From positions 124,001 through 188,000 of the forward strand of contig DASYCE010000007.1 in assembly GCA_036500345.1 (NCBI GenBank): DNA of 64,000 nucleotides, written 5' to 3'. Source of the DNA: Gemmatimonadales bacterium. GTDB lineage: Bacteria; Gemmatimonadota; Gemmatimonadetes; Gemmatimonadales; GWC2-71-9. Numbering within the stretch: the first letter of the stretch is position 1; each line of letters opens with the position of its first letter. Position numbers and translations under genes: made by a program. The notes beneath the pieces were generated by a model. It did not search any database and was not told the origin of the DNA. It worked only from the letters and a program-made list of their open reading frames with translations. Positions 11,050 through 42,405 of the stretch are shown piece by piece.

Positions 11050-12236
11050 TGCGCACCTTCCGATCGGTCCGGCGGCGCGCCGGATTCACGCTGGTCGAAC
11101 TCCTCCTCGCGATGACGATGGCCGTCGCGGTGAGCGGCGCGGCGTTCGCGCTCTTCCACTCGCAGTCGACCTTCTTCGGGACCAACGAGCAGCGGTACGA
11201 CATGCTGCAGAACGCCCGCGGCGCGCTCGAAGACGCCGAACGGGTGGTCCGCACCATGGGCGCCGGCGTCCCGAACAATCAGCCGGTCCTCGTCTACGGC
11301 GACAGCGCCACACTGGCGTTCAATACTGATTACATCGAACGCGACACCGCCGACACGCGCTGGGCGGCGTACTTCAACGCCGAAACTCCCGACGCCGAGA
11401 CGATCGTGTGGGATGTCACCAATTCGTCGGTGATTCCCGGCACGTCGTACAGCTATCCTCCGACCACGTACGCCCTGGCGAGCGGTGACCCGTCGCCGGC
11501 CGAGACATACATCCTCTATTTCTCACCGGACTCGTCGACCGCACGAACCGACGACTACATCCTCTGGCAGCGGGTCAATAACGGCACGCCGACACTGGTG
11601 GCGCGCAACATCCTCCCGCACCCCAACGGCAAGCCGTTCTTCATGTACCTGCAGCGGCGCACGCTGACCACCGGCGACACGCTCATCGTCGAACCGGCCG
11701 CCAACCTTCCGCTCGAACGCCGGACGCTCATCGCGGGGATCACCCGCGCCGACAGCGCCTCCTACGTCCGCCCCGATTCGGTGCGCGCCGTCGAGCTGAA
11801 CATGCGATTCACCAACGGCCAGAGCGGCACCGACCAGCGCTTCCGCGACGTCCAGACCACGATCCAGGTGCCGAACAACGGGATCCCGATCCCGACCGTC
11901 TGCGGGCGCGCGCCGTTCTCCCCGACGTCGTTCACCGTGGTCGATACCGTCGCGGGGAGCGGGCGTCTCTGGCTCAGCTGGAACCGCTCGATTGATCAGG
12001 ACGCCGGCGAGCAGGATGTGCTGCAGTACATCCTCTACCGCAAGCTGCAGGGCGCCACCAGCTGGTCGGATCCGCTGGCGGTCGTCCGGCGCGTGCCCAC
12101 CCAGACGAGCTACACCGAAGAGATCTCCGACAACGTTCCCGGCACCGCGTACACCTACGGCATCTCGGCCCAGGATTGCACGCCGTCGGAGTCGACGATC
12201 ACGGTGTTGAACGTGACAGCATCGATCGCCCCTTGA
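11049..12236 (+). CDS. PilW-type minor pilin with a C-terminal fibronectin III-like domain
   Basis: 395 residues. The prepilin signal RRAG then FTLVELLLAMTMAVAVSGAA places the cleavage site near residue 12. A globular beta-rich region follows. From about residue 285, after a VCGRAPFSP stretch, the sequence has the strand pattern of a fibronectin type III domain (PTSFTVVDTVAGSGRLWLSW, YILYRKLQG, YTEEISDNVPGTAYTYGIS). Such domains often bind surfaces or other proteins. The gene is coupled to pilV and precedes the PilX-like gene by 14 bases. Confidence 0.8.
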   Translation: MRTFRSVRRRAGFTLVELLLAMTMAVAVSGAAFALFHSQSTFFGTNEQRYDMLQNARGALEDAERVVRTMGAGVPNNQPVLVYGDSATLAFNTDYIERDTADTRWAAYFNAETPDAETIVWDVTNSSVIPGTSYSYPPTTYALASGDPSPAETYILYFSPDSSTARTDDYILWQRVNNGTPTLVARNILPHPNGKPFFMYLQRRTLTTGDTLIVEPAANLPLERRTLIAGITRADSASYVRPDSVRAVELNMRFTNGQSGTDQRFRDVQTTIQVPNNGIPIPTVCGRAPFSPTSFTVVDTVAGSGRLWLSWNRSIDQDAGEQDVLQYILYRKLQGATSWSDPLAVVRRVPTQTSYTEEISDNVPGTAYTYGISAQDCTPSESTITVLNVTASIAP

Positions 12237-12250
12237 GCTGGAGGTCTCTC

Positions 12251-14260
12251 ATGCGAAGTGTGTCACTGGATCGCCGTGGCGCGGCGCTCTTCATGGCGAT
12301 GCTCATCGCGATTGCCATCGCCGGCATCGCCCTCGGCGGTGTCCTCCTGTCGTCGGGCGCCGATCTCTCGACGCGGTACAACGCCAAGGAAGCGCTGCTC
12401 CAGTCATCGGCGGACGGCGGCCTCGAAATGGTGCGCGATTCGCTCAATCGCGGGATCTTCGATTCGCTGCTGCCGCCGACCGGCTATACCACGCTCGCGT
12501 CGCATGTCCCCGTGCTCGACGCCCTCGGCAACGCCGAGCCGCGGATCAACCTCTCGCTCTACGTGGGACGCACCGGCGGGCGCACCGGTGGTGCGGCGAC
12601 CGCCGGCCAGTACGGCAGCAACTTCGCCAGCGCGCTGTCGATCATCAGCGACGTCCGCGGAGCGGTCACCGCGCGGCGGCTCCTCCTCACCCAGGAGTCG
12701 TGGGCGAAGTTCGCAGTCGCGATCAACAAGTGGAGCGGCAGCGCGATGTATGGCTGCGATGAATCGGTCAACGGACCGTTCTTCTCCAACACCAGCGTCA
12801 ATCTCCAGACCGGGTGCGGCGCGGGCAGCGGCACCCTGTTCACCTCGTCCGTGAACGTCGTCGGCTCGATTTCCGGCGTCGGATCAGGTCGCTTCGATCT
12901 CGGCTACAAGACCGGCGTTACCGCGATTCCGTGGCCGACTCCGGCCCGCATCGCGCTGATGCAGCAGTACGCGCAGGACGCCGACGCCGCCGGCGGAGAC
13001 TACGACCTCACCTCGATCACCAACGGATCGACGATCCCCGGCCTGCGCATCGAGTTCGTCACCATCGACGTGAACGGCAACGGTATCATCGACTGGGACG
13101 AAGGGTTCATGCGTGTCTGGGTTCCAGCCAATTCCAGCGATTCGGTTCTCGCCTACGCGACCGGCCGCAAGTGGCCGTCGGTGCCGTCCGGCACCACGCA
13201 GGCGAACGATCCCAACATGATTTCGCGGAACTGCGGCGGCGTGACCACGATCAACGGGACCAGCCAGTTCTTCACCGCCGACAGCGTCTACAGCGCCACC
13301 ACCGGCGGCGGCTCGGCACAGCGCACCGCCGTGCGCTCCCTGCTCAGCAGCTCGACCGATCAGCGCCGCTGCTATCTCGGCGGCGACCCGCACCTCTTCA
13401 CCGGGATCACGCACGACACGCTGACGCCGGATTCGACGATCACCAACCTTCCGATCGCGTCGAACAACTTCGGCTGGTGGAAGAAGCGGCGGTCCGGCGC
13501 GCTCTCCACACTCGCCGCTGTCCGCACCGGAGACGCCTCGTACCTCATCCCTCTCGGCGCCAACCCGAACTTCAAGGGCGTGATCTACGTCAACGGTGAC
13601 GTGGCACTCAGCGGCAAGCTCCGCGGCCGCGTCTCGGTCTTCGCCACCGGCAACATCGTCATGGCCGACGACCTGCTGTACCAGAATCCTCCGGGGACCA
13701 ACTGCAGCGCCACCGGCGACATCTTCGGCGCGATCGCGACCAGGGACGTGGTGATCGAGGACAACAACCTGCAGACGCCGTTTGCGGTCAACAGCAAGGT
13801 CTATGGCGGATTCGACGACACCAACGACGCCAACTACAACATGTTCCTCCTCGCGGCAGGCGACGGCGGGACCACCAACGGCAACTGGTACGGCGAAGGG
13901 GTCTCGTCGCCGTGGAACTACTACACGACGGCGTTCCCGGTCGCGAGTGCGGAACCGGGCACTGCGAATTCCAACTGGGATATCTCGGCGATCAACCAGA
14001 AGTGCGGTTCGGCGGTGAACGGCTGCGTCCGCGTGACCGGCGGCCTGGCGCAAGGACGCGTCGACGACGCGACCTACTACGGCTCAGGGTTCTATGGGTG
14101 GGCTGAAGCGCACACGTACGATGCCTGCGGTGGCGTGAATCCGCCGCCGTACTTTCCGACCACGGGGCGCTTCATCCCGAGCCGCTATTACGAGATCGAT
14201 CCGGTGTGGCTCAACAGCATCGGGATCGGGACGTACTTCACCCGCCTGCAGGCGCAGTAA
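12251..14260 (+). CDS. Large PilX-like pilus-associated protein with EF-hand-like loop
   Basis: 669 residues. A short basic leader RRGAALFMAM is followed by a membrane helix (AIAIAGIALGGVLLSSG) without the classical FTLIE glutamate, as in PilX/GspK-type proteins. The large extracellular part contains DVNGNGIIDWDE, a full EF-hand-type calcium loop, near residue 280. It also has a long glycine/asparagine-rich beta region (KGVIYVNGDVALSGKLRG, NIVMADDLLY) resembling the polymer-like C-terminal domain of pilus-linked proteins. A GGAGG lies just upstream of the ATG. It ends the pilin operon and converges on purA. A role at the pilus tip or in adhesion is an inference. Confidence 0.75.
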   Translation: MRSVSLDRRGAALFMAMLIAIAIAGIALGGVLLSSGADLSTRYNAKEALLQSSADGGLEMVRDSLNRGIFDSLLPPTGYTTLASHVPVLDALGNAEPRINLSLYVGRTGGRTGGAATAGQYGSNFASALSIISDVRGAVTARRLLLTQESWAKFAVAINKWSGSAMYGCDESVNGPFFSNTSVNLQTGCGAGSGTLFTSSVNVVGSISGVGSGRFDLGYKTGVTAIPWPTPARIALMQQYAQDADAAGGDYDLTSITNGSTIPGLRIEFVTIDVNGNGIIDWDEGFMRVWVPANSSDSVLAYATGRKWPSVPSGTTQANDPNMISRNCGGVTTINGTSQFFTADSVYSATTGGGSAQRTAVRSLLSSSTDQRRCYLGGDPHLFTGITHDTLTPDSTITNLPIASNNFGWWKKRRSGALSTLAAVRTGDASYLIPLGANPNFKGVIYVNGDVALSGKLRGRVSVFATGNIVMADDLLYQNPPGTNCSATGDIFGAIATRDVVIEDNNLQTPFAVNSKVYGGFDDTNDANYNMFLLAAGDGGTTNGNWYGEGVSSPWNYYTTAFPVASAEPGTANSNWDISAINQKCGSAVNGCVRVTGGLAQGRVDDATYYGSGFYGWAEAHTYDACGGVNPPPYFPTTGRFIPSRYYEIDPVWLNSIGIGTYFTRLQAQ

Positions 14261-17540: not shown

Positions 17541-17610
17541 TGGGCGCAAGTTACCCGGCCCTGCGAGGCTGGGCAATCAGATTACGAGGCCTGGTGAGCG
17601 CCCGCGGAGC

Positions 17611-18012
17611 CTACGGTCCGGCCGGCTCTTCGTTGGGGTAATTGAACAGGAGCTGGTTGCCATCGGGGTCGTCCACCACGAGCAAACGGTACCCCCATTC
17701 GCCATCCTTTACGGTGACGCCGTTCGCCTCCAGGTCAGCGCGCAATGCGTTGAGTGCGGCGGTCCCGGCGGCGGCGGTCGGTGGGTCGGTATTGAGCGAG
17801 ATGAAGACGACGGTCTGACCGACCTTGCCGGGCCAGCTCTTCGACAGGATCAGCGAACAGCCATCGCGGTCGACTTGAGCGACGAACGGCTTGCCGTCTT
17901 CGTCGAACGACCAGGGCGACGTGAAACCGAGGCGGTCGACGAAGAAGCGGAGCGAGGCCGCGACGTCGCGGACTGGGAGGATCGTTCGAGCGAACCATTC
18001 CGGACGTGGCAT
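17611..18012 (-). CDS. VOC-superfamily (glyoxalase/bleomycin-resistance-like) protein
   Basis: 133 residues with the paired beta-alpha-beta modules of the vicinal oxygen chelate fold: ARTILPVRDVAASLRFFVDR at the start, GCSLILSKSW in the middle, and the typical C-terminal RLLVVDDPDGNQLLFNYPN. These proteins act as dioxygenases, glyoxalases or drug-binding resistance proteins; nothing here distinguishes which. The start at 18012 is preceded by a GGAGGGGA tract. The upstream flank is the 21-bp repeat field. Confidence 0.85.
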   Translation of the reverse strand: MPRPEWFARTILPVRDVAASLRFFVDRLGFTSPWSFDEDGKPFVAQVDRDGCSLILSKSWPGKVGQTVVFISLNTDPPTAAAGTAALNALRADLEANGVTVKDGEWGYRLLVVDDPDGNQLLFNYPNEEPAGP

Positions 18013-18593
18013 CTCCCCTCCTTGCGGTCGGTACCGATCGCCTGCGGGCTGATACAAATATGACGGCTTGGGACGGGGTTCGGATGCCTGCCGATGCGGT
18101 TCGTCCGACTCCCGATACTCGTGGCCCGCGTTCGGGTACTGTCGAAGTGCTCGTCGGTACTGATCGCCCGCGAACCGACGGAGATGGACTGCTCGTGGGG
18201 ACCGAAAGTACGACGGCCGATCATCCGCGCACGACGGTCAATCATCGGCGCACGACGTCCAATCATCCGCGCACGACGTCCAATCATCCGTGCACGCGAT
18301 CCGATCCTCCGAGTCCGCCGCCAGGTCCTGGCGTAATGAATACAGATACGCACGACACGGCGATCAAACCACTGCGCACGCCCACCGATACGGTCCGCCT
18401 CCCCGCGAGACCAACCGGCACGCTGACGATCGGACAGCGGATGACTGCCGGTACAACGAGCCAGCAGGCCGGTACAACGAGCCTTGAGGCCAATACAGCG
18501 GAGACGGCGACCGATCATCCCGGGCCGGGAACGAATACTGAGTGGCCGGTGGCGAGTACTCCGCGTCCGGAAGCGATTCCCGCCCTAGTTTAG
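18006..18593 (+). CDS. Possible heptad-repeat protein encoded by the 21-bp field (doubtful)
   Basis: A plus-strand frame from a GTG at 18006 to a TAG at 18591 covers the whole repeat field and would give 195 residues in 26 heptads (for example GTDRPRT, DHPRTTV, NHPRTTS, GTTSQQA). The frame has no internal stop and ends right where the repeats end. The GTG overlaps the start of the divergent VOC gene and has no good ribosome-binding site. The minus strand is also open over much of the field, so the open frame may only reflect the 21-base period. Low complexity, rich in Thr, Pro and Arg; function unknown. Confidence 0.25.
   Translation: MASPLLAVGTDRLRADTNMTAWDGVRMPADAVRPTPDTRGPRSGTVEVLVGTDRPRTDGDGLLVGTESTTADHPRTTVNHRRTTSNHPRTTSNHPCTRSDPPSPPPGPGVMNTDTHDTAIKPLRTPTDTVRLPARPTGTLTIGQRMTAGTTSQQAGTTSLEANTAETATDHPGPGTNTEWPVASTPRPEAIPALV
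18030..18575. repeat. 26 contiguous degenerate 21-bp units
   Basis: Reading in 21-base steps from 18030, nearly every unit begins with a [G/A][G/A]T triplet, usually followed by AC, CA or CC, and many carry CGCACG near the middle. Adjacent copies at 18219, 18240, 18261 and 18282 are nearly identical (AATCATCCGCGCACGACGTC-like), as are those at 18450 and 18471 (GGTACAACGAGCC-like). The others are clearly diverged but keep the phase. The block fills almost all of the space between the VOC gene and the inositol-phosphatase-family gene. On the plus strand it reads as heptapeptide units beginning [G/D/N][T/H]. Confidence 0.85.
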
Positions 18594-18597
18594 AGAT

Positions 18598-19398
18598 ATG
18601 ACCGACGCCGCCCGCCTTGCACGACTCGCCGAACGTGCTGCAGCCGCAGCCACTTCATATCTCCTCAATGTCCCTCGACCAGATCCCGGCGCATGGGTCG
18701 TGAAGGGACATCGCGACTTCGTCACCAACGTCGACCGCACGGCAGAGGCGCTGATCCGCGACGATCTGCTGGCGGCCGAGCCCGATTCCCGCGTGCTCGG
18801 CGAGGAACTATCGGCGGACGCGAACGAGATGCAGGGGCTCGTCTGGGTTGTCGATCCGCTCGACGGCACGACCAACTTCCTGCACGGCTATCCGTGGTGG
18901 TCGGTGTCGATTGCCGCGGTGATCGACGGCGAACCGGTGGCGGGGACGGTGTGGCACGTCCCGATCCATCGCCGTTACACCGCGTGGCGCGGCGGCGGCG
19001 CGTGGAGCGGCGGGACGAGGCTCAAGGTGTCGCAGCTCACCGATCCGTCGCTCGCCCTGATCGGCACTGGCTTCCCGTTCAAGACGCCGGGCGATCTCGG
19101 CCCGTATCTGCCGCAATTCGAGCGGATCGTTGCTGCGACGAGTGGCGTAAGGCGCGCGGGCTCTGCGGCGCTCGATCTCGTCGCGGTGGCGGCGGGAGAG
19201 TTCGATGGATTCTGGGAGCTGACGCTGGCGCCGTGGGACAAGGCGGCGGGGATGGTGCTGATCCGCGAGGCAGGTGGCGTGGTGACAGGTGTTGATGGTT
19301 CACCTGCGCGAGTAGAGCACGGCGGGGTGGTTGCGGGGAATCCGGCGATGCATGCGTGGTTGCTGGAACAGATCAGCGAAGCAGATGCGGCGAGGTGA
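18598..19398 (+). CDS. Inositol monophosphatase family protein
   Basis: 266 residues of the lithium-sensitive phosphatase fold. Metal-binding motifs are in order: GHRDFVTNVDRTAE, LGEELS, WVVDPLDGTTNFLHG and LAPWDKAAGMVLIREAGG. Family members hydrolyse inositol-1-phosphate or related sugar phosphates (SuhB, CysQ, histidinol-phosphatase types). The RRAGSAALDL block is also typical. It starts five bases after the repeat-field frame ends. Confidence 0.92.
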   Translation: MTDAARLARLAERAAAAATSYLLNVPRPDPGAWVVKGHRDFVTNVDRTAEALIRDDLLAAEPDSRVLGEELSADANEMQGLVWVVDPLDGTTNFLHGYPWWSVSIAAVIDGEPVAGTVWHVPIHRRYTAWRGGGAWSGGTRLKVSQLTDPSLALIGTGFPFKTPGDLGPYLPQFERIVAATSGVRRAGSAALDLVAVAAGEFDGFWELTLAPWDKAAGMVLIREAGGVVTGVDGSPARVEHGGVVAGNPAMHAWLLEQISEADAAR

Positions 19399-42361: not shown

Positions 42362-42405
42362 CTCCCGCACATCTCCCGCACCGCTCCCGCACCGTTCCCG
42401 CACGA
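42362..42405. repeat. Four 11-bp direct repeats upstream of doxX
   Basis: CTCCCGCACAT, CTCCCGCACCG, CTCCCGCACCG and TTCCCGCACGA follow one another directly, in the 148-base gap between the response-regulator stop and the DoxX start. Direct repeats are a common form of LytTR binding site, but whether this spacing is bound is unknown. Confidence 0.7.

Follow-up and report, generated by a model that had tools for sequence, protein, structure and literature searches.

The window analysed here, a stretch of 64,000 nucleotides, contains an intergenic array of 26 contiguous 21-bp units. This array belongs to a genome-wide, partly gene-linked family of period-21 arrays and sits in an insert; both points had escaped the initial annotation of this DNA. 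There is direct support for the 21-bp period and for its recurrence in arrays whose units are unrelated, for a link to one gene family, for unit types common to gene-linked and orphan arrays, for a lack of coding constraint and for the small number of indels. We put at roughly one in two the probability that the window stretch is an orphan copy of dispersed, non-coding, multivalent protein-binding arrays that are phased at 21 bp and would each be bound by an array-specific partner.

The window array and its insert

A tandem repeat, or minisatellite, consists of head-to-tail copies of one unit that match above chance, and such copies were found across the window array (Table 1). The match is 0.51 at lag 21 and 0.41-0.48 at lags 42-126, with a mean of 0.27 over lags 1-129. 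The initial annotation had divided the stretch into 26 contiguous 21-bp units, and the split proved exact, with both ends where it had placed them. An autocorrelation check outside the near-identical copies had also been named beforehand: with both arrays reported by Tandem Repeats Finder masked, lag 21 gives a match of 0.44 and lags 42 and 63 give 0.46, and the 21-base signal persists. A cyclic 21-state model scored 292 bits on the window array with no indel events, and four shuffles scored 21-49 bits. Deviations from the consensus occur at 233 of 546 positions, and because most units are about half alike, Tandem Repeats Finder detected only 18210-18311 (4.9 copies) and 18452-18497 (2.2 copies). 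The earlier description of the unit itself did not hold: not every unit starts with [G/A][G/A]T (position 3 is T in 20 of the 26), and CGCACG, said to be present in many, occurs in five.

Table 1 Features at the trpS/IMPase junction of the window
Feature	Position	Strand	Remarks
Remnant of the old trpS/IMPase junction, from the trpS start codon	17538-17577		Read by eye against six relatives
Segment of ~1.02 kb absent from relatives (glyoxalase gene and array)	17578-18597		Edges judged by eye
Glyoxalase-superfamily gene	17611-18012	-	Pfam PF00903; ATG at 18012; an upstream TTG would give 17611-18057
Orphan array, 26 x 21-bp units, non-coding	18030-18575	+	Consensus GATACTCCGCGCACGCCGGCC; 0 indels
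Four near-identical units, recent local amplification	18219-18302	+	
Two near-identical units, second local duplication	18450-18491	+	
Inositol monophosphatase family (IMPase) gene	18598-19398	+	Pfam PF00459, ORF; start codon 22 bp past the array

A CRISPR array was considered and rejected, as the 21-bp units are contiguous and do not alternate between a constant part and spacers. No Rfam match was found at the window array at E<=1, and no sigma70-like promoter or terminator was found there between the genes. Elsewhere in the window, an 11-bp tandem repeat of 3.8 copies occupies 42362-42403.

The position of the array was compared with the IMPase loci of relatives. In all 29 of these loci trpS adjoins the IMPase gene, and no glyoxalase homologue is present at the junction in any of them; a period-21 array is likewise absent from the orthologous locus. 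Since the junction is intact in 29 of 29 relatives and a remnant of it is retained in the window, the ~1.02-kb segment was inserted or grew in the window genome. The neighbours of the array are ordinary genes, which counts against its being a docking site for protein.

Arrays elsewhere and a linked gene family

At least 15 further period-21 arrays are present in the window genome (16 are listed, including that at 80.6 kb of contig C11 and leaving the window array apart). The C11 array (~80571-81011) was found with a degenerate pattern, has the same unit type as the window array and comprises 22 units without indel events under the cyclic model. A period scan of ~1.26 Mb of the genome recovered arrays at C7 (37.3-38.0 kb, hereafter C7:37k), C32 (~160 kb), C11 (19.5 kb, hereafter C11:19k) and C15 (99.3 kb). 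DNA searches added arrays on C26, C21, C1, C4, C10 and C16 and at 178.7 kb of C11, and reading upstream of the genes described below added those on C12, C25 and C30, with one on C28 lying downstream. In a contrast scan of periods 18-27, eight of ten hits in a sample of the own genome fell at period 21, one of these eight being a coding coiled coil and two being pieces of the same array; the 0.8 Mb scanned in relatives gave four hits, all at period 21, of which two are 7-bp microsatellites and one touches masked bases. Searches of relatives with array DNA or with an 84-column sequence model (R1) returned nothing notable outside the own genome, and the relatives' loci fetched for hits of the array searches hold no period-21 array. 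No description of such arrays was found in the full-text literature covered, which excludes subscription journals and preprints.

The C11 and C21 arrays stand before paralogous genes of one unnamed family of helical proteins, which has seven copies in the window genome. A one-protein query found members in 11 of 61 genomes, an alignment query recovered them from 35 of 395 Gemmatimonadota genomes, and one is present in a relative of the same genus (G009). The family has no informative match in Pfam, NCBIfam, PADLOC or PHROG, where hits are scattered and confined to single members, and no match to the PDB by sequence; no homologue of the linked protein was found in plasmids and phages. An AlphaFold model consists of long helices (mean pLDDT 87.7). 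The best rows of a fold search are helical sensor domains (McpS) and other helical bundles, and alignment to 2yfa with VIA-align gave Z 10.9 and an rmsd of 3.8 over 181 residues, where the guide value for helical bundles is ~13. No DNA-binding domain was recognised in the linked protein, a point against protein docking at the arrays. An N-acetylmuramidase gene (PF11860) follows two of the seven paralogues (L209:2302-3147 and L230:2271-3134).

The family loci scanned for period 21 are a subset, as family matches outnumber them; six fragmentary matches (L217, L218, L219, L224, L225 and L227) were left out before counting, and the only one of them scanned, L217, has a best period other than 21. 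Of the 39 loci kept, two have too little upstream DNA, leaving 37. Among periods 13-33, period 21 is best upstream of 32 of 37 members and downstream of 8 of 39. By a margin of 0.05, set after these best-period counts were known and with one member exactly on it, period 21 leads every other period upstream of 28 of 37 members, or 26 of 35 when the discovery loci C11 and C21 are excluded, and in 0 of 153 flanks taken as controls (57 at IMPase genes and 96 at chance hits; Fisher p 5e-26). The same margin is reached in 2 of 520 tiles from relatives and in 8 of 821 tiles from the own genome, the latter including four arrays already counted here and one coding coiled coil. Nine of the 37 members have no clear upstream array, which speaks against the proposed binding. 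At the C28 family gene (L229), the period-21 array is downstream and not upstream.

Promoter-like elements were also observed at these genes. TGGCAC-N7-GC, which we read by its consensus as a sigma54-type (-24/-12) promoter, lies 106-144 bp upstream of the matched start in 16 of 27 members from bacterial family f1, whose 420-bp flanks contain one further match elsewhere (expectation ~0.001 per member), and in 0 of 11 members from bacterial family f2. An inverted repeat, TGTCC-spacer-GGACA (no more than one mismatch and a spacer of 7 or 8), is found 182-335 bp upstream in 11 of 12 members from the window genus; when spacers of 5-11 are allowed, 17 of all 38 members have it, where shuffling gives 4.3. 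At the loci read, the 21-bp array lies still farther upstream than both elements. The gene-linked f1 loci resemble sigma54-controlled units with upstream activator sites, having a -24/-12 type element at a near-constant distance from the gene and, in one genus, TGTCC-N7/8-GGACA upstream of it. In contrast to the parts of such units, the array differs between paralogues and occurs without these elements too. The window array has neither element, which weakens the case for protein docking there, and neither was seen at the orphan arrays examined, except for a one-mismatch inverted repeat with spacer 5 near the C26 array.

The exact inverted repeat occurs at 14 sites in the genome, five of them at family genes, and is thus not private to the helical-protein family. 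Exact TGTCC-N7/8-GGACA copies outside the family include C6:69845 (L267), C11:203217 (L269) and C31:196659-196696 (L275). A good sigma54-type element lies 70-220 bp from those on C6 and C11, and on C31 there are two inverted repeats in a row. Other genes controlled by the same activator may lie at such sites.

In type III toxin-antitoxin systems, a tandem-repeat RNA is encoded upstream of a toxin gene. The arrays could by analogy be transcribed, their repeat RNAs pairing with or neutralising the linked protein. As in ToxIN and its relatives, a tandem array stands directly upstream of one gene, and between array and gene lies a promoter-like element that belongs to the linked gene. However, the units here are 21 bp long, only ~50% alike and present in 10-35 copies, and many orphan arrays are dispersed without such a gene. 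The linked protein matches no toxin family, and the window array, which lacks an Rfam match as well as a sigma70-like promoter or terminator, is followed by the IMPase gene and not by a known toxin gene. We consider an RNA of this kind improbable.

Shared unit types and a proposed binding mode

To compare units between loci, the profiles of 17 arrays were tested pairwise against each other, 136 times in all, with column permutation as the control. The seven highest-scoring pairs all lie inside the window genome and form three groups, each with a gene-linked array: C11 with the window array (z 7.5) and C32 (z 5.1), C21 with C7:37k and C26 (z 8.8 each), and C12 with C15 (z 7.6). The window array is thus an orphan of the type found beside the C11 gene. 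Searches with the C30 gene array match orphans on C1, C4, C10 and C16, and those with the C12 gene array match one more orphan on C11, so that four of five gene-linked arrays have orphans of the same unit elsewhere in the genome. Five orphans were found without recourse to unit similarity (window, C7:37k, C32, C11:19k and C15), and four of them have a gene-linked partner at z >=5. For C15 and C11:19k, a match to one of the gene arrays still left had been posed as a question beforehand; C15 gave one and C11:19k did not. Neither C11:19k nor the C25 gene array has a partner at z >=5, which is evidence against the proposed binding. At that level gene-linked arrays are unrelated to each other and to those from other species (best z 3.7). 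Homologous blocks were seen in one pair, the orphans C7:37k and C26, and never between a gene-linked array and an orphan, so the orphans did not arise as recent whole copies of gene-linked arrays.

Unit sequences thus vary between array types and the 21-bp period is constant, which suggests that the geometry is selected and the letters are set locally. A repeat of two helical turns fits proteins arranged side by side, and a specificity that follows the unit would fit the sharing of types. In such an arrangement, each unit would be the site for one protein, and 10 to 35 copies could be bound along one face of the DNA. The partner would be specific to the array, the simplest candidate being the product of the linked gene. 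A gene-linked array would serve its own promoter and orphan arrays would be further targets in trans. New units would arise by slippage or unequal exchange, which would explain the local near-identical blocks. It is possible, and we advance it tentatively, that these parts make up a bacterial cis-trans system of a new kind in which paralogous helical proteins, each with a 21-bp code near its promoter and orphans as targets, co-diversify with their arrays. If type sharing reflects recognition, this would be a chromosome-wide addressing system, so far undescribed, from a phylum that has been little studied; each member of the gene family would have a 21-bp code to itself, and copies of that code would stand next to housekeeping genes.

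Some known systems share parts of this arrangement. Iterons and plasmid centromere-like arrays are direct repeats with a cognate DNA-binding protein, and like the present arrays they have many repeats at whole-helical-turn spacing near one gene. The present arrays differ in being chromosomal and highly degenerate, with many unit types per genome, orphans beside ordinary genes and a linked protein without a recognised DNA-binding domain. RAYT genes, which have flanking REP sequences and many orphan repeats elsewhere, are also comparable, but here the repeats are long arrays of direct units and not single palindromes, and the linked protein is not of transposase type, matching no transposase model.

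Phase, substitution and coding

If the phase of the arrays is maintained, homologous arrays are expected to differ by substitutions more than by indels. Aligned in register, the orphans C7:37k and C26 are 70% identical over 338 bp, a figure that falls to 47-52% if one array is shifted by a unit; they differ there by 101 substitutions and no indels, and a later net gap measures 21 bp. Neutral sequence typically shows 5-20 substitutions per indel, and under this range the probability of zero indels in the pair is 2e-9 to 0.006. Mismatches in the window array are spread unevenly over the columns of the unit (p 0.0002), and column conservation correlates with that in the C11 array (Spearman 0.66); common descent or mutation bias could account for part of this. 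The phase constraint is not absolute, since as many as six indel events occur in other arrays. The earlier suggestion that the sites share one helical face gains weight from the scarcity of indels, the uneven columns and the recurrence of period 21 with unrelated units; it loses some because no 10.5-bp half-period was found within the unit, and the binding itself is a step that we infer.

The main rival is a functionless bacterial satellite without a bound protein, spread by slippage, unequal exchange and occasional copying. Gene-linked arrays would then be source copies or tolerated sites, and period 21 a by-product of unit multiplication. Degenerate tandem units, local homogenisation and multi-unit blocks are indeed shared with minisatellites and with eukaryotic satellites that have higher-order repeats: near-identical units cluster locally, a five-unit block is repeated about four times in the C1 array (as judged by eye), the C7:37k and C26 arrays are block-homologous, unit similarity drops as the distance between units grows, and array types are genome-specific. 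However, a neutral array should collect short indels, which are missing from the C7:37k/C26 pair, and should decay uniformly, whereas the columns of the window array are uneven. Unlike satellites, the arrays have few indels and keep their period while the unit changes, and both the retention of period 21 by types with unrelated units and the presence of arrays at one gene family in 28 of 37 cases are left unexplained by neutrality. We therefore regard a satellite as rather unlikely. Were it correct, bacteria would offer a satellite DNA whose period is fixed, which forms higher-order blocks and which is tied to one gene family, and satellite evolution would become tractable in them. On either account, a protein that binds the C11 unit should bind the window array too.

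Twenty-one base pairs also equal seven codons, and the array had been described as an uninterrupted heptapeptide-repeat frame on the plus strand. That frame is open as described (18006-18593), but so is a minus-strand frame across the array, and the variable positions of the window array point to that minus frame. An encoded heptapeptide-repeat protein is nevertheless very improbable. The sister array on C11 breaks the same frames, and no Pfam match was found. Substitutions between the homologous C7:37k and C26 arrays fall at the three codon positions 32/29/40, without a clear third-position excess, so coding does not explain the constraint on this pair. Third positions give a weak signal when 29 arrays are taken together, and on both strands the frames that it would imply are interrupted by stops. 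With no codon-position constraint and no conservation of frames, a protein-coding repeat was rejected, and the preferred reading of the window stretch is as non-coding DNA that proteins would bind.

Other repeats were recorded in the course of the scans. In one relative (G029, L207), two period-21 arrays with unrelated units are adjacent, and one of them has a near-palindromic core. Another relative (G004) carries long intergenic 7-bp microsatellites at L156:10444-10530 and 12020-12285. In the window genome, an intergenic 62-bp direct repeat with a 31-bp signal is present on C3 (L135:18293-18447), and a 37-bp tandem repeat of 2.6 copies on C11 (L115:15428-15522) overlaps a weak 21-bp signal.
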